Source: Candidatus Manganitrophus noduliformans (lineage in GTDB: Bacteria > Nitrospirota > Nitrospiria > SBBL01 > Manganitrophaceae). From it: a stretch of 64,000 bases of DNA. This document shows positions 3-11,148 of the stretch, in pieces. Location: NCBI RefSeq assembly GCF_012184425.1, contig NZ_VTOW01000002.1, positions 868,001-932,000 of the forward strand. Direction: 5' to 3'. The position numbers and the translations under genes are program-made. How positions within the stretch are numbered: position 1 is the stretch's first letter; each line of letters starts with the position of its first letter. A model generated the notes under the pieces. That model saw nothing but the letters and a program-made list of their open reading frames with translations, was not told where the DNA came from and did not search any database.

Positions 3-611
3 GCGATCGCCCTGTACGGCGGCTTGCAGCTGCTCTGGAGAAAACCCAAAGGGGAAGAAGAGGCCTACTATACGCGGGTCATGCACTTGGGGATGGTGAT
101 CGGAACCGGCCTGCTCCTGATTCAGCCGATCGCGGGGATGCTCTATTCGTTTCAGATCCGGCGGGCCAATCCGCGGGCGTACGAGCGGATTCTCTTCGAG
201 CTGGAGTGGCTGCTGCGGATCCAGTTTCTCTTGATCGGACTTCTTTTCTACTTGAGCAACCAATTTTTTGCGCAGATCTCCTCCCATCCCCGGCGCTCCC
301 GCGTTCTGATCGGAACGCTCCTTCTGGCGGCTTTCTTCATGGTCCTCGCCGCGCAGCAGGTCTGGATTCGGCGGGGACTGACCCTGGTCCTGATCTTGAT
401 TACGCTTTACCATCTCCGCCACGTTCCCCTCCGGGAAACGCCGCAGCATCGCCGGGGACCGTGGCTCGCGATCTCGGTCGGCTTTTGCGCCGTGGCGACC
501 TTTCTGGTGATGGGGGTGATTCGGGAGCAGGCCCGGCGGCCGTATACGGTGTATGGAGAGATCCGTCTTGAAGATGAAAAACAACCGGCATCGGAGCTCG
601 CACAACGATGA
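3..611 (+). CDS. CydA-like membrane protein, 5'-truncated by window edge
   Basis: The frame is open to the first bases of the window, so only the C-terminal part (about 200 residues) is seen. It holds about five hydrophobic membrane segments and ends in a tail containing ARRPYTVYGEIRLEDE. That tail closely matches the end of the CydA-like protein at 2296-3648 (ARYPYLIYGKMTMEDE), so the two are paralogues; the position corresponds to the GRQPW region of cytochrome bd subunit I. Whether the haem ligands are kept cannot be judged because the N-terminus is missing. The stop overlaps the Rieske start (ATGA), implying translational coupling. Inferred role: integral membrane electron-transfer or quinol-reactive subunit of a hybrid bc/bd-like complex. 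Confidence 0.75.
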   Translation, partial: AIALYGGLQLLWRKPKGEEEAYYTRVMHLGMVIGTGLLLIQPIAGMLYSFQIRRANPRAYERILFELEWLLRIQFLLIGLLFYLSNQFFAQISSHPRRSRVLIGTLLLAAFFMVLAAQQVWIRRGLTLVLILITLYHLRHVPLRETPQHRRGPWLAISVGFCAVATFLVMGVIREQARRPYTVYGEIRLEDEKQPASELAQR

Positions 612-1153
612 ATCAGACAACGGAAGAGCCGATCGGACGGCGGCATTTCATGGAACGGGCGATCCTGGGCATCTTCGGCGCTTTGGGCCTGATGCTCTCG
701 GCGCCGATCATCGGCTACATCCTCTCGCCGATCTTCCGCGTCCGGGAGAACCTCGCCCAATCGACGCGGTGGGCGCCGATCGCCTCCCTGGCGGAAATGG
801 AGTCGATCGGAGATCTCCCCCGGATGTTTCAGGTCCCCTATTTCGTGAAAGAGGGATGGCGGACGCGGGAGACCTCGCGGCCGGTCTTCGCGGTGAAGAA
901 AGGGGGAAAGTTGGCCCTCTTCTCCTCTTTTTGCACCCATCTCGGCTGCCCGACCGCATGGGACGAGGCGAAGCGGATGATCATCTGCCCCTGCCACGGC
1001 GGACTCTATAACAACTTCGGGGAGGTGATCGGCGGCCCCCCGCCCCGGAACCTGGCGGAGATGGAATACAAGGTGGAGAACGGGCTGGTCTATCTGAAAG
1101 ACCCGGCGAACGTTTACGAGGTCGGATGGAAAGATCCGAGGAGGCCGGCTTGA
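608..1153 (+). CDS. Rieske [2Fe-2S] protein of a cytochrome bc/b6f-type complex
   Basis: A 181-residue Rieske protein. One N-terminal membrane anchor (about residues 16-42) follows a basic stretch with GRRHF, resembling a Tat-type signal anchor without an obvious twin-arginine consensus. The cluster-binding boxes are intact: CTHLGC at 109-114 and CPCHGG at 127-132, followed by the GPPPR loop. In this family the protein carries electrons from quinol at the Qo site of cytochrome b to a c-type cytochrome in the periplasm. It overlaps the upstream CydA-like gene by 4 nt and is followed at once by cytochrome b, so the three are very likely one operon and one complex. Confidence 0.93.
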   Translation: MNQTTEEPIGRRHFMERAILGIFGALGLMLSAPIIGYILSPIFRVRENLAQSTRWAPIASLAEMESIGDLPRMFQVPYFVKEGWRTRETSRPVFAVKKGGKLALFSSFCTHLGCPTAWDEAKRMIICPCHGGLYNNFGEVIGGPPPRNLAEMEYKVENGLVYLKDPANVYEVGWKDPRRPA

Positions 1154-1161
1154 GACACGGC

Positions 1162-2277
1162 ATGAGACAATCGCTCCGGGATTGGTTCGACGAGCGGGTG
1201 GGGCTCGATATTTTCGAGCGGATGCTTCAGAAGCCGCTCCCGAAGCGGGGGGCCTGGTTTTATACCCTCGGGAGCGCCACCTTGTCTTTGATCACGATCC
1301 AGTTCGTCACCGGCGCCTTCTTGATGTTCTACTACGTCCCAGACGGGGAATACGCCGAGCAGTCGATCCGGTACATCACGGAGCAGGTGAGCTACGGCTG
1401 GTATCTGCGGAGCATGCACCGCTGGTCGGCGAACCTCCTCTTCGTCGTGATCGGACTCCACATGTTCCGCGTCTTCGTGAGCGGCTCGTTCAAGCGGCCG
1501 CGGGAGATGACCTGGGTCATCGGCGCGCTGATCTTTTTGACGGTGATCGGCATCGGCTTGACCGGCGGGCTTTTGCCGTGGGACGACAACGCCCATTGGA
1601 TCGGAACGGTCTTCGGGAACACCCTCTCCTATTTCCCGTTGGTCGGCCCTTTTCTTCGCAGCGCGCTCCTGGGGGGAGAACATGTCGGCACCCTCACGCT
1701 GACCCGGTTCTACGCCCTGCATGTTTGGGTTCTCCCGCTGGTGCTCGGAATTTTGATTACATTGCACCTCTACCTGATCCGGAAGCACGGCCTCTTCGGG
1801 TCGGTCATCGAGTACCGCGATCAGATCGCGGCGCTGAAGGCGAAGGGGGTCCCGCGGGAATCGATCATCGTGACGAAAATGACCCCCGACGAGACGGAGC
1901 CTTTTTATCCCGCCCAGGTTTTCCGCGACTCGATCGTCGCCTTCGGCCTGATCACCGCCGTTTCGCTTTTTTCGATCCTCTTCCCCTTCTCCCCTTATCG
2001 GGGCGAAGAGCCGCCGCCGACCGAGATCATTCCCCGGCCGGAGTGGTTTTTCTGGTCGGTGGACGAGTGGCTGATGTTCTTTCCGGGGCGGTTGATCCCG
2101 ATCGGGCTGATTCTCGTCACCCTCTTTTTTCTTTTTCTCCCCCTCATTCCGTTTGTCGAGCGCCACCCGGAGGTCAGCCCCATCCGAAGGCCGGTCCCGA
2201 CGATCATCGGAACGTGGGTCTATCTTTTTATCATCGTCCTCGCCCTGATGGCGGGGGCGCGGATTCTCAACTACTGA
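1162..2277 (+). CDS. Cytochrome b (fused b6/subunit IV type)
   Basis: About 371 residues. Counting from ATG 1162, histidines fall at 86, 100, 187 and 202, the numbering and spacing (14 residues between the last pair) of b6-type rather than mitochondrial-type cytochrome b; these should bind two haems b. The C-terminal part continues into a subunit-IV-like section with PEWFFW in place of PEWY, the Qo-site signature. About eight membrane segments are visible. Start choice is uncertain: ATG 1162 is used, TTG 1150 has a better-spaced GAGGAGG (1138-1144), and ATG 1126 would overlap the Rieske gene by 28 nt. Role: quinol oxidation/reduction core of the complex, possibly run in reverse in a chemolithotroph. 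Confidence 0.93.
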   Translation: MRQSLRDWFDERVGLDIFERMLQKPLPKRGAWFYTLGSATLSLITIQFVTGAFLMFYYVPDGEYAEQSIRYITEQVSYGWYLRSMHRWSANLLFVVIGLHMFRVFVSGSFKRPREMTWVIGALIFLTVIGIGLTGGLLPWDDNAHWIGTVFGNTLSYFPLVGPFLRSALLGGEHVGTLTLTRFYALHVWVLPLVLGILITLHLYLIRKHGLFGSVIEYRDQIAALKAKGVPRESIIVTKMTPDETEPFYPAQVFRDSIVAFGLITAVSLFSILFPFSPYRGEEPPPTEIIPRPEWFFWSVDEWLMFFPGRLIPIGLILVTLFFLFLPLIPFVERHPEVSPIRRPVPTIIGTWVYLFIIVLALMAGARILNY

Positions 2278-2295
2278 CGCAACAGGGGAATCGGG

Positions 2296-3648
2296 ATGGA
2301 GGAATCGTTACTCGCAAGCCGATTGGCGATCGCAATCACCGCGTCGCTGCACTCTCTCTTCGCCACCTTCATCGTCGGGGGGATGCTCTTGGGCGCCACG
2401 GCCGAATCGGTCGGGGTGCTCACCCGCGAGCCGCGCTACGAGCGGCTCTCCCATTCGATCGCCCGCACCCTCGTGCTGATGAGCGCGACGGTGGCCTTTT
2501 TGGGGGTGGTCCTCGTTTTCTTGCTGACGATCCTCTGGCCGGCCTTCTGGACCCTTCTTTTTCGGATCATGTTCTGGCCGCTGATCTTCGAGGCGTCGAT
2601 GTTCTTGGGGGAGGCCGCCTGTCTCTATCCCTGGTATTACAGCTGGGGAAAATGGCCGCGGAAAACCCATCTGTTCGTCGCCTGGCTGGGGGCGACCTTC
2701 GGGGTGATCGCGATGGTGATGATCGACATCGTCGGCTCTTTCATGCTGACCCCCGGCCCGGTCGAGCCGTTTTTCAAACGGGCCATCAACCCGACGATGG
2801 TTCAACTGACCCTTCATCGCTTCGCCGGAAATCTGTCGTGGTTTGGCTTCGGCATCGCCGCGCTTTCGGCCATCCGTTATTTGCGGACGAAAGATCCGGA
2901 AGAGCGGGCCTATCATGAATGGGTCGGCGCCTTTTCGGTGATTGTCGGGTTCGGATTTCTTCTTCTGATGCCGATCATCGGGTTTTCCTATCTGAAAGCG
3001 GTCCGCTTCGCCTCCGAGGGGGCGTTCAGCCGGCTGATGCTCGGCGAGAAATCGTGGATCTTCGTTCTCCAGGTCCTCCTGATCAACGTTCTCTTTATCG
3101 CCGGAACCTGGTACATGTTCCGGATGGCCTACTTTCGGTACAAAGAAAACCCCCATTTCAAGCGGTACCGTCTGATCACCTTCATCGTGATGGGAATCGC
3201 GGCGATCGTTTTCGTGATGCCTTACCAGGTCCGCTACATCCCCTTCGCCGAGTATTTCACCTCGGCCGAGGTCAATCCCTGGGGAAAGATGCAGCCGCAT
3301 AAATACATTGCGATGGGGGTCCTGATCGGATTGGGAATCCTCAACTACGGCTTCTATCTCAGCGCCCTGCGCTTCAAGACGGAGTGGGGGGGAGGAGGGC
3401 GTTTCCCTCAAGCGCTTCTGATCATCCTCGGCCTCTTTACGATCTTCTCGATGATCAACATGGGTTATGCCCGGGAGAACGCGCGGTATCCCTATCTGAT
3501 CTACGGCAAAATGACGATGGAAGATGAAAGAGAAATCGGCTTGGGAGGGGGCCGTTCGACGCGCGAAGCTCCCGACCGCCAAAGAAAGAGCCCCGACGAT
3601 CGGAATGATCCGAACCCTCGGGGCTCTGAAGAAATGAGGAGACGCTGA
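2296..3648 (+). CDS. CydA-like (cytochrome bd subunit I-like) membrane protein
   Basis: 450 residues with about nine membrane segments. Several cytochrome bd subunit I landmarks are kept: His19 (b595 ligand position in E. coli CydA), an acidic residue at 99 within FEAS followed by Glu106, a helix with His174 near the position of the b558 ligand, and a Met in KYIAMGVLIGLG that aligns with the other b558 ligand. The quinol-binding Q-loop is not recognisable and the GRQPW motif is replaced by ARYPYLIYG. No CydB follows. It is therefore a bd-like protein, not a standard bd oxidase; oxygen reduction is not assured. It follows cytochrome b by 18 nt. The last ~20 codons are low-complexity and contain a terminator hairpin for the opposite strand. 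Confidence 0.8.
   Translation: MEESLLASRLAIAITASLHSLFATFIVGGMLLGATAESVGVLTREPRYERLSHSIARTLVLMSATVAFLGVVLVFLLTILWPAFWTLLFRIMFWPLIFEASMFLGEAACLYPWYYSWGKWPRKTHLFVAWLGATFGVIAMVMIDIVGSFMLTPGPVEPFFKRAINPTMVQLTLHRFAGNLSWFGFGIAALSAIRYLRTKDPEERAYHEWVGAFSVIVGFGFLLLMPIIGFSYLKAVRFASEGAFSRLMLGEKSWIFVLQVLLINVLFIAGTWYMFRMAYFRYKENPHFKRYRLITFIVMGIAAIVFVMPYQVRYIPFAEYFTSAEVNPWGKMQPHKYIAMGVLIGLGILNYGFYLSALRFKTEWGGGGRFPQALLIILGLFTIFSMINMGYARENARYPYLIYGKMTMEDEREIGLGGGRSTREAPDRQRKSPDDRNDPNPRGSEEMRRR
3587..3627 (-). terminator. Intrinsic terminator for the 3651-4094 gene, inside the CydA-like 3' end
   Basis: A 10-bp perfect inverted repeat (AGAGCCCCGA at 3587-3596, TCGGGGCTCT at 3618-3627) is followed on the minus strand by TTCTTT. 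It lies 24 nt past the stop of the minus-strand gene and within the C-terminal codons of the plus-strand gene. On the plus strand no T-tract follows. Confidence 0.6.
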
Positions 3649-3650
3649 GA

Positions 3651-4094
3651 TTACCCGGCCGGCGGCTCCATCGGTCCCCCTTGCTCTTGGGGGGTCACCT
3701 CGACCGCGTTGAGGACCACGACCAGGTCGATCTGGTCTCCCTCTTCGATTTGATCCAGCTGGCCTCTCGCCCCTTCCTCGACGGTAAAGATATTCACCAT
3801 CCCTTCCGGGGTCCGCACGGCAATCAATCCGGTCGCCGGATCGATATCGAGCACCTCTCCCGAAACCGTTCCTCGCGTCGGGATCATCGGCGTTCCGCCG
3901 GGGGCCATCCCTTCTTGCGATTCCATTCCCGGCTGCTCCGATTCCATCCCCGGATCGGGCTGTTGTTGATTCAGATCACGCCCCGGTTGACCCTGCTGCT
4001 CATCCGGCTGCGCCATCTGCGCAGAGGAGGTGACCGGCCCCATGATCAGCATTCCCATCATTAAAAAACCAAATAAGACGACGAATCTTTTCAT
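3651..4094 (-). CDS. Small secreted protein, paralogue of 4222-4602
   Basis: 147 residues from ATG 4094, with an AGGAGAG ribosome site 6-7 nt upstream; a TTG lies one codon earlier. Residues 1-26 form a Sec signal peptide (basic start, hydrophobic core, SSAQM cleavage region). A Gln/Pro/Met-rich linker follows, then a compact domain with VSGEVLDIDPATGLIAVRT and FTVEEGARGQLDQIEEGD, which looks like a small beta-barrel. The downstream neighbour on the same strand has the same signal peptide and domain, so this is a tandem duplication. Function is not known; a periplasmic location is inferred. Confidence 0.72.
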   Translation of the reverse strand: MKRFVVLFGFLMMGMLIMGPVTSSAQMAQPDEQQGQPGRDLNQQQPDPGMESEQPGMESQEGMAPGGTPMIPTRGTVSGEVLDIDPATGLIAVRTPEGMVNIFTVEEGARGQLDQIEEGDQIDLVVVLNAVEVTPQEQGGPMEPPAG

Positions 4095-4120
4095 CAAATC
4101 TCTCCTTTATCGGCAAGTGC

Positions 4121-4221: not shown

Positions 4222-4602
4222 TCACCGGGTCATCGGCTGCTGCGGCGATCCTCCCTGCGTTCCTTGCTGGGGGGTCGCCCGAAGGACCATCACCAAATCG
4301 ACCTGGTCTCCTTTTTTGATCTGATTGAGCTGCTCTTTTGCTTCTTCCTCAACCGTGAAACGGTTGGTCACCCCTTCCTCGGTTTGGATCTCGATCATCC
4401 CGGTTTGCGGATTGATATTCACCACCTCGCCGGAAAGTCTCCCCTCCGAGAGGATCACCCCGCTGCCGCCGCCGGGAGCCGCCCCTCTCCCCTCTTCAAA
4501 TTGATTCGAGGGTTTTTGCTCCATTTCTGCATGAGACAGGACCGGTCCCATGAGGAACATTCCTATCATTAATCCAAATAGGACGAAGAATCCTTTTTTC
4601 AT
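4222..4602 (-). CDS. Small secreted protein, paralogue of 3651-4094
   Basis: 126 residues from ATG 4602, with GGGAGG 7 nt upstream; GTG 4605 is an alternative. Signal peptide MKKGFFVLFGLMIGMFLMG... ending near SHAEM. The mature part repeats the layout of the neighbour: short linker, then LSGEVVNINPQTGMIEIQT and FTVEEEAKEQLNQIKKGD. It lacks the long Gln/Pro linker seen in the neighbour. The two genes are on the same strand 127 nt apart. Function unknown; the conserved pattern suggests a small periplasmic beta-structured domain. Confidence 0.72.
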   Translation of the reverse strand: MKKGFFVLFGLMIGMFLMGPVLSHAEMEQKPSNQFEEGRGAAPGGGSGVILSEGRLSGEVVNINPQTGMIEIQTEEGVTNRFTVEEEAKEQLNQIKKGDQVDLVMVLRATPQQGTQGGSPQQPMTR

Positions 4603-4619
4603 CACAATACCTCCCTTGC

Positions 4620-5042: not shown

Positions 5043-5429
5043 ATGCCTATTGATAGTATGAGCAAGAAAAGTGCCTTTTTAAAAGAGCGCGGAGCTTTTC
5101 TATTCGATTAAAAATGAAATCATTCAGGCGCCTCGATTTCTCTTTGTAAAAAGCTTGCACAGATGACCGAGGCGATTGCGAAAGAACGGTGGTTTTTATA
5201 CATTCCGGATCACATCACCCGCGGATCTCCCGGAAGCGATCGGGCGGGTAAAGCGGAGAGCCCCTTGGACTTCCTCCCTTTGCATGGCATCGTCCGCCGT
5301 TGCGACGATGCCTGGTACAAATATTGCTCCGATATCAATCATGATATTTCTCATCGTTCGATCCATTTGAGTCTCATTTTGAGTCTCATCGGCGGCGATG
5401 ATCGAAATCGATTTCATCGGGAGCGAAGG
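5043..5429. other. Non-coding gap with candidate sigma-54 promoter and tandem repeat
   Basis: A plus-strand frame runs through here from 5163, but its composition and lack of a ribosome site suggest it is not translated. The stretch holds a sigma-54-like site at 5313-5328 and a 12-bp tandem repeat at 5367-5390, both upstream of the BON gene. Confidence 0.4.
5313..5328 (+). promoter_or_regulatory. Candidate sigma-54 (-24/-12) promoter
   Basis: TGGTACAAATATTGCT matches the sigma-54 consensus TGGCACG-N4-TTGCW except at two tolerated positions, with the exact 10-nt spacing between GG and GC. It lies about 100 nt upstream of the BON-protein start. Confidence 0.4.
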
Positions 5430-6937: not shown

Positions 6938-7158
6938 CGTCGATGGTTTGTGTCCCCCGCCTCATCGAAGGGGTTCCATCCGAAATCCATCCGGAGGATG
7001 GACGCAACGGATTAACCTTCCCCCCACTTACATTGATATAGTGCCGTCAAAAGTATTCACGCCTTAGGGGGGCATCAAAGATCAAATCATATGCTACCCG
7101 TAAGCAAATGCGCTTCGGAAACGCGCTATTTCCGAACCATTTCGCGGATGCTTCGTCA

Positions 7159-8482
7159 GCTTCAATGAGGCCGAAGATTTTACTCTTCGGAAAGTGGCGC
7201 CGACCCAGCCTGGATCGAAGACCTATCTGGTGCTTCAATGAGGCCGAAGATTTTACTCTTCGGAAAGTTCATGTCTGACCTGTTCGGAATCCTCGCCAAA
7301 CACGAGCTTCAATGAGGCCGAAGATTTTACTCTTCGGAAAGTCGAGCAAACCCAAAACTATGCCGAAGTCCCGGACATGCTTCAATAGGGCCAAAGATTT
7401 TACTCTTCGGAAAGTGCTGGACAAGATCACGATTTTGGAAATGAGAATCACGCTTCAATGAGGCCGAAGACTTTACTCTTCGGAAAGGCCGTTGGGATGG
7501 TCGAGCTCTCCCCGGCTCTTTCGAGGCTTCAATAAGGCCGAAGATTTTACTCTTCGGAAAGATTCTGAAATTCAGAAACGGCCACATTTTCAGAACGAGC
7601 TTCAATTAAGCCGAAGATTTTAGAGAGGCCCTACGTCCCGGTCCCCGCACCATCAACATCACTTCAATGAGGCCGAAGATTTTACTCTTCGGAAAGTTGG
7701 TCCGCCTGAATCTGCTTATCATGTTCCTCGCAGACTCTTCAATAAGGCCGAAGACTTTACCCTTCGGAAAGGGAAGTAGAGCCACCGCGTCTTTCGCGCG
7801 AACCACTCTCTTCAATAAGGCCGAAGATTTTACTCTTCGGAAAATGCTGGTATGCCGATCTTCGGGCCTGGGGCCTGGGGCTTCAATGAGGCCGAAGGTT
7901 TTATTCTTCGGGAAGTTCCTACCCTCCTCTCCGCCCTCGAAGCGGCTCAGCGGGCTTCAATAAGGCCGAAGATTTTACTCTTCGGAAAGTATCTTGGCGT
8001 TGATCAGGCTCTCGGCCATTCCCGCGCTTCAATGAGGCCGAAGACTTTAGTCTTCGGAAAGGACCCGTATCCGAAATTCAGATAATTGTCGTTGTCCCAC
8101 TCGCTTCAATAAGGCCAAAGATTTTACTCTTCGGAAAGGATACCCAAAAGGGCAACCGCCTTTAAAACTCTCCTGTGCTTCAATAAGGCCGAAGATTTTA
8201 CTCTTCGGAAAGCGCGGCCTGCTTAAAAGCGTTGACCTTGATCGTGTCGCTTCAATAGGGCCGAAGATTTTACTCTTCGGAAAGCACCGCGTGCTGCTCT
8301 TTCAACCTATCCAGAAACCGCTTCAATGAGGCCGAAGATTTTACTCTTCGGAAAGAGGAGCTTACCGGGTCGGACATTTCCGTGGAGCTGACGCTTCAAT
8401 GAGGCCGAAGATTTTACTCTTCGGAAAGCGACCATCACCTTGTCCACGTTCCAGAGCGTCCCCTTACTTCAATGAGGCCGAA
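7159..8482 (-). CRISPR. CRISPR array, 19 repeat units, 18 spacers, type I-G
   Basis: Repeats are 36 nt, starting on the plus strand with GCTTCAATGAGG and ending CTCTTCGGAAAG. They begin at 7159, 7232, 7306, 7379, 7452, 7526, 7599, 7661, 7736, 7809, 7880, 7954, 8026, 8102, 8177, 8249, 8320, 8393 and 8466. Spacers are 35-40 nt and all different. Read on the minus strand the repeat contains the stem CCGAAGA/TCTTCGG and ends in ATTGAAGC, a typical 8-nt crRNA handle, so transcription is probably minus, like the cas genes. The unit at 7599 is only 24 nt; the unit at 8466 is only about 17 nt and merges into a cas4 remnant. A fragment CTTCGGAAA at 7113-7121, one spacer length before the first repeat, may be a decayed terminal repeat. 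No leader is visible. Confidence 0.97.
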
Positions 8483-8571
8483 TATCCCAAACGGGGACAA
8501 TAGGTAAACTCGTTCAGCATCCGCACGGGGAGGAGCGGCAGGTCGGCAGGCGGATCTGTAGCGTTGTTCAT
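8464..8571 (-). pseudogene. Remnant of cas4 (cas4-cas1) N-terminus fused to a CRISPR repeat
   Basis: A 35-codon minus-strand ORF too short for usual ORF callers. AAGGAG (8579-8584 on the plus strand) precedes ATG 8571. It encodes LPLLPVRMLNEFTYCPRLGY, the characteristic N-terminus of the Cas4 domain in type I-G Cas4-Cas1 fusions (the RMLNEFxYCPRL pattern including a cluster Cys). Directly after GY the codons become SASLK-stop and are CRISPR-repeat sequence (TTCGGCCTCATTGAAG). The rest of cas4-cas1, cas2 and the leader are absent. It follows csb2 by 52 nt, exactly where type I-G adaptation genes normally stand. This is a deletion scar. Confidence 0.85.

Positions 8572-8623: not shown

Positions 8624-11148
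<2,525 letters not shown>

Follow-up and report, generated by a model that had tools for sequence, protein, structure and literature searches.

The window analysed here is a stretch of 64,000 nucleotides that runs from position 868001 to 932000 on a contig of 1.16 Mb within the 5.17 Mb genome of Candidatus Manganitrophus noduliformans. At its left edge lie genes for a CydA-like protein (CydA1), a Rieske protein, a b6-type cytochrome b and a second CydA-like protein (CydA2), an order that an earlier note, made from the sequence alone, had proposed and that agrees, coordinates included, with the list of open reading frames (Table 1). CydA1, which the window truncates, was completed from 18 kb of surrounding sequence (L008), and the gene order of the operon was confirmed as receiver-like gene, CydA1, Rieske, cytochrome b and CydA2. 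Junctions inside the cluster run from a 4-nt overlap up to 18 nt. Specifically, a 4-nt ATGA overlap joins the CydA1 and Rieske genes, as had been noted, while the apparent 28-nt overlap between Rieske and cytochrome b is probably a start-codon artefact, because the cytochrome b start in the related record GW715_bin.13 aligns with the ATG at window position 1162 and thereby leaves an 8-nt gap after the Rieske gene.

Table 1. Features of the cluster and its surroundings (window positions unless prefixed L008, the 18 kb of surrounding sequence, or L115).
Feature	Position	Strand	Remarks
NtrC-type sigma-54 activator	L008:9651-10745		two genes upstream of CydA1
Candidate sigma-54 site GGTACGGATATTGCT, twin of TGGTACAAATATTGCT	L008:10927-10941		outside the window; 38-39 nt before the receiver-like gene heading the operon
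Receiver-like gene	L008:10980-11354		124 aa; below Pfam cut-off for Response_reg
CydA1, final 202 codons	3..611	+	full 407-aa gene at L008:11388-12611, starting 613 bases left of window position 1
Rieske [2Fe-2S] protein	608..1153	+	PF00355; N-terminal membrane anchor
Cytochrome b, b6-type	1162..2277	+	fused subunit-IV-like C-terminus; 371 aa from conserved start; reading frame opens at 1126
CydA2	2296..3648	+	450 aa; PF01654; probable oxygen-reducing subunit
Two small exported proteins	3651-4097, 4222-4605	-	follow the cluster in the relatives examined
Sigma-54-like site	5061-5076	-
Candidate sigma-54 -24/-12 site TGGTACAAATATTGCT	5313..5328	+	upstream of BON-GAPDH genes
Sigma-54-like site	L115:6734

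The absence of CydB, claimed earlier for the locus, holds genome-wide: no PF02322 match was obtained anywhere in the 5.17 Mb. Seven CydA-like proteins of this genome score above the Pfam cut-off, to which the divergent CydA1 has to be added. An ordinary CydAB oxidase truncated by the edge of the window can be ruled out, since the genome lacks CydB and CydA1 lacks E99 and E107; the gene upstream of Rieske is thus not a canonical CydA accompanied by CydB. Likewise, the extension to the left that had been suggested as a way to find c-type cytochromes revealed none, the CxxCH haem-c motif being absent from all open reading frames of at least 30 aa in the cluster and about 10 kb around it. Nor were Act genes, encoding alternative complex III (ACIII), found in the 18 kb around the cluster, where Rieske and cytochrome b stand instead.

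Subunits and their ligands

The Rieske protein scores above the cut-off for PF00355 (3e-9), its CTHLGC and CPCHG motifs are intact, and, beyond the cluster itself, it most resembles (up to 44%) the short Rieske proteins found in Nitrospirota bc complexes. Cytochrome b likewise exceeds the cut-off for Cytochrome_B (PF00033, 1e-48), and alignment of its four haem-b histidines with b6 H86, H100, H187 and H202 bears out the ligand positions named in the earlier note. Its Qo motif reads PEWF, where nearly all relatives have PEWY, and Cys35 of b6 is replaced by Thr. Additionally, the protein has no C-terminal cytochrome c, unlike the other bc-type cytochrome b of the genome (L102). Among the parts of a complex III, therefore, a four-His, PEW-bearing cytochrome b and a Rieske protein are present, and neither cytochrome f/c1 nor any other haem-c acceptor subunit was found in the cluster and about 10 kb around it.

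CydA2 matches PF01654 above the cut-off (3e-22), and its predicted structure (pLDDT 74.1, pTM 0.75) aligns with solved CydA chains at Z 24-28 and an rmsd of 3.4-3.8 Å. Invariant across 12 relatives are H19, E99, E106 (=E107), H174 (=H186), E394 (=E445) and R397 (=R448). Assignment of the N-terminal ligands follows from a gap-free alignment with the solved Geobacillus CydA, in which H19, E99 and E106 pair with H21, E101 and E108 and therefore correspond to E. coli H19, E99 and E107; the loss of E99 that a MAFFT alignment seemed to imply is overruled by this alignment together with the invariant column. HH-align placed the CydA profiles against E. coli CydA at the N-terminus only. The retention of His19 and of an acidic residue at 99, as first noted, is thus confirmed and extended by a second acidic ligand. 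No segment of Q-loop size occurs in CydA2, and the letters GRQPW are missing, both as previously described, yet RENARYP stands where AEYGRQPW is found and retains the E445 and R448 positions. Taken at the level of its residues, the oxygen site of CydA2 looks intact.

CydA1 is considerably more divergent. Its tail alone scored 14.5 bits, under the Pfam cut-off, and a sequence search against the PDB gave no match. Its predicted structure (pLDDT 81.9, pTM 0.84), however, aligns with solved CydA chains at Z 26-29 and an rmsd of 3.1-3.4 Å over 312-327 residues, and on this model CydA1 has the full CydA fold. Of the ligands, H29 (=H19), H194 (=H186) and E380 (=E445) are kept, while E99 and E107 are missing; the E107 position carries a His that is specific to this cluster, as opposed to the Q, M or L of ACIII-linked CydA1 proteins. 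Met393, the haem b558 ligand, is conserved in neither CydA1 nor CydA2. Since the ligand set is full in CydA2 and E99 and E107 are missing from CydA1, CydA2 is likely the oxygen-reducing subunit and CydA1 likely the partner that takes the role of CydB, both structurally and in electron transfer.

Conservation and possible regulation of the operon

The operon is present in five of the six Ca. Manganitrophus genomes, namely this one and G299, G300, G301 and G302, the latter four carrying its cytochrome b at 89-99%; the same cytochrome b is absent from the sixth, G183, and from the 12 other genomes of the order. Across 270 genomes of the class, the Rieske orthologue occurs only in these five, the next best match reaching 44%. 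The nearest named records are GAC4 (Ca. Manganitrophus sp., 96%) and GW715_bin.13 (Ca. Manganitrophaceae, 83%) over CydA2, the latter agreeing with G300 in coordinates and identity; a scan of genome contigs returned two Manganitrophaceae records as its sole matches, and plasmid searches returned nothing close. The order of receiver-like gene, CydA1, Rieske, cytochrome b, CydA2, small exported protein(s), BON and GAPDH is kept in GW715_bin.13, GAC4 (where the BON gene is not called as an open reading frame) and G299, such that the genes stay together in close relatives rather than being scattered. Values of dN/dS between 0.06 and 0.20 place all four genes under purifying selection, and because five genomes carry it at such values the cluster is not a chance assembly.

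In GAC4 (L057, CP114561.1), CydA1, Rieske and CydA2 are interrupted by no fewer than five single-base losses, most of which fall in homopolymer runs. Decay to a pseudogene was considered and rejected, as the losses fit long-read or assembly errors and G299 is intact; automatic annotation of GAC4 will nonetheless show false pseudogenes in the operon.

Three copies of the pattern GGTACNNATATTGCT were counted genome-wide, compared with none in the control. The three sites lie before the receiver-like gene, upstream of BON-GAPDH (window 5313) and before a dehydrogenase gene, so that two of the three flank the cluster. Both local sites recur in GAC4 and G299; that of BON-GAPDH recurs in GW715_bin.13 as well, a record that begins too late to cover the receiver-gene site. 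A looser sigma-54 consensus alone is near chance in the locus. Together with the sigma-54 activator encoded two genes upstream of CydA1, the GGTACNNATATTGCT sites tentatively suggest that the cluster is under conditional, sigma-54-dependent expression from these candidate promoters. The receiver-like protein has a Lys (LLKDQM) at the expected position of the phospho-acceptor Asp and is possibly a non-phosphorylated receiver. The small exported proteins match no Pfam family above cut-off, the second giving a weak CusF-like match. Further along, window positions 7158-8485 and 8624-10174 (minus strand) hold a CRISPR array in which an unusually variable repeat (GCTTCAATRAGGCCGAAGAYTTTACTCTTCGGAAAG) recurs in about 19 copies, adjoining a type I-G Csb2 gene (TIGR02165, E 2e-54).

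Relation to known clusters

The TO_3 listing for Ca. Manganitrophus strain Mn1 reportedly originates with Yu and Leadbetter in 2020. Four CydA-like terminal-oxidase clusters have been listed for Ca. Manganitrophus (PMC9040806). By their genes, TO_2 (with MrpD) corresponds to L012 and TO_4 (with ACIII) to L010 of the present genome, and L009 is the candidate for TO_1; the present locus is the sole remaining CydA cluster with complex III parts. Because the other three map elsewhere, the cluster is very probably the published TO_3, identified by elimination, and as such very probably already catalogued. In the literature covered on TO_3, its ancestry, its ligands and its lack of haem c were not found described; what is new here is the CydAA' ancestry, the split of ligands between the two CydA-like proteins, the missing haem c and a sigma-54 control that is possible.

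Phylogeny of both CydA-like proteins, a check that had been proposed at the outset, placed CydA1 and CydA2 each as sister to the ACIII-linked A1 and A2 proteins (reference pairs from Nitrospira, G183 and L010), with support of 100/100 for the joint A1 clade and 98/99 for the joint A2 clade. Such ACIII-linked pairs have been termed OR-N5-type CydAA' oxygen reductases (PMC12342949). Similarity to them extends to 37-47% identity and to the distribution of ligands, with a full set in CydA2 and a CydA1 devoid of E99 and E107. The two systems differ in the quinol-oxidising partner: in the one it is ACIII, which brings pentahaem and monohaem cytochrome c, and in TO_3 it is Rieske/cytochrome b. TO_3 also branches outside every ACIII-linked CydAA'. 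This comparison suggests that one type of CydAA' heterodimer works with interchangeable quinol-oxidising partners.

In gene order, by contrast, the closest likeness is to the CIII_1/bd-like cluster of Nitrospira, found in G143, G163, G157, G233 and G265, in which Rieske and cytochrome b likewise sit between two CydA-like genes; in N. moscoviensis, the CIII_1/bd-like_1/bd-like_2 region has already been proposed as a III/IV supercomplex (PMC6606698). The CydA-like proteins on either side of complex III in ordinary Nitrospirota (L103, L055, L098, L099, L105) nevertheless form a separate clade, with Ser instead of Glu at the E445 position (RSxxR, as opposed to RE(T/N)xR in TO_3). Given that the order is shared and the CydA clades differ, one gene order is used with two CydA-like pairs. 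The Nitrospira-type cluster differs further in a Rieske protein of about 310 aa and in several interleaved cytochrome c genes, of which TO_3 has none. The branch that leads to the cytochrome b of TO_3 is very long and falls outside the two known Nitrospirota groups, and grouping of this protein with CIII_1 is only marginally rejected (p-AU 0.0425). A degenerate copy of the ordinary Nitrospira cluster is thus ruled out by the tree for the CydA parts, but only marginally for cytochrome b. The order alone is standard in Nitrospira; the unusual features are the CydA-like proteins used and the absence of haem c. Among relatives from the class, clusters that place complex III between two CydA-like proteins and have cytochrome c genes interspersed are widespread (L055, L098, L099, L103, L105).

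Canonical cytochrome bd (CydAB) shares with the cluster the CydA fold and the H19, E99, E107, E445 and R448 positions of CydA2, but has CydB, a Q-loop and Met393, all three of which are missing here, where cytochrome b and Rieske would provide the quinol site instead. The archaeal SoxM-type quinol oxidase supercomplex would be a functional analogue, in that Rieske and cytochrome b feed an oxidase without cytochrome c; its haem-copper oxidase and blue copper protein set it apart, and the oxidase part is not known to be related in sequence.

Proposed function and alternatives

Cytochrome b6 with a PEW motif, together with Rieske, oxidises quinol, and the H19/E99/E107/E445 site of CydA reduces O2. 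Cytochrome bd usually takes electrons straight from quinol without pumping, and bc complexes usually pass theirs to cytochrome c. Our preferred reading, to which we assign a probability of about 0.58, is that the four genes encode one membrane complex acting as a forward quinol:oxygen oxidoreductase, in which the bd-like subunits receive their electrons straight from Rieske. Specifically, quinol would be oxidised at the Qo site of cytochrome b, one electron entering the b haems and the other the Rieske cluster; from there, with no haem c in the cluster, it would move without an intermediary to a haem in the CydA1/CydA2 heterodimer, where CydA1 would stand in for CydB as structural and electron-transfer partner and CydA2 would reduce O2 at its di-haem site. 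The net reaction would carry electrons from quinol to O2 with proton translocation by a Q-cycle. We infer the physical complex, the direct transfer, the oxygen activity and the direction from the conservation of the operon, the ligands of CydA2, the folds, the Rieske and cytochrome b motifs and the lack of CydB and CxxCH, all of which support a forward quinol:O2 oxidase, as does the finding that the sister CydAA' pairs adjoin ACIII, another quinol-oxidising module. The loss of Met393 counts against firmly placing the haem at which electrons enter, and a soluble cytochrome c encoded elsewhere could act as go-between for Rieske and CydA. No biochemistry was found in the literature for the cluster or for any Nitrospirota CydAA'. 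The more specific picture of a haem-c-free bc/bd hybrid, a single complex with both a Q-cycle and a CydAA' oxygen site, derived from a CydAA' pair that exchanged ACIII for, or was first built with, Rieske/cytochrome b, is put forward tentatively. Should Rieske indeed feed a bd-type site directly, the result would be a new wiring from quinol to O2 with a proton yield above that of plain bd.

The CydA-like proteins might instead serve in electron transfer or anchoring only, leaving a quinol dehydrogenase that would deliver its electrons to a periplasmic cytochrome c or to a different oxidase encoded at another locus. Consistent with this are the missing E99 and E107 of CydA1, the loss of Met393 from both proteins and the resemblance of both models, at Z 18-20 and thus clearly above unrelated entries, to the non-oxidase ACIII proteins ActC/ActF. 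CydA2, however, has the complete set of ligand positions for a di-haem oxygen site and matches CydA better than ActC/ActF, and we consider this alternative unlikely. That the operon encodes two enzymes, with the CydAA' pair as an oxidase and Rieske/cytochrome b as a complex of its own, draws on the sister CydAA', which works beside ACIII and is hence separable from Rieske/cytochrome b; it is made improbable by the position of the Rieske and cytochrome b genes between the CydA genes, with their tight junctions and an order kept in the relatives examined, and by the lack of an encoded cytochrome c1/f that a free-standing bc complex would use.

The earlier note had proposed a quinone-linked complex that may run in reverse. 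A conserved operon of b6/Rieske and CydA-like genes lacking CydB does make one complex the natural reading, but the uphill direction gained no positive support. In such a scheme, electrons from a high-potential donor would enter at the Rieske or CydA haems, and quinone reduction driven by the proton motive force would feed complex I for CO2 fixation. The organism is an autotroph on a high-potential donor and needs reverse electron flow, bc-type complexes are reversible in other chemolithotrophs, and reversal has been suggested for the Nitrospira bd-like clusters (PMC6606698). Yet the retained oxygen-site ligands of CydA2 would be pointless in a pure quinone reductase, and the kin of this protein are proposed oxygen reductases; the cluster has no donor cytochrome c; one member of the genus lacks the cluster, and the family's marine genus has no TO_3 (PMC9040806). 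Additionally, TO_2, which has MrpD pumps, is common to the whole family and lies at another locus, is already the published candidate for uphill quinone reduction (PMC9040806). Reverse operation is therefore very doubtful, and the make-up of the cluster is suggestive of an enzyme taking electrons directly from quinol to oxygen, not of one that pumps them uphill. Patchy and possibly expressed from a sigma-54 promoter, it is less likely than TO_1 or TO_2 to be a core route of Mn(II) respiration, which narrows the respiratory candidates in Mn-oxidising Nitrospirota. In G265 (L105), the second CydA-like gene has two MrpD-like genes after it, an arrangement that recalls TO_2 of Manganitrophus.
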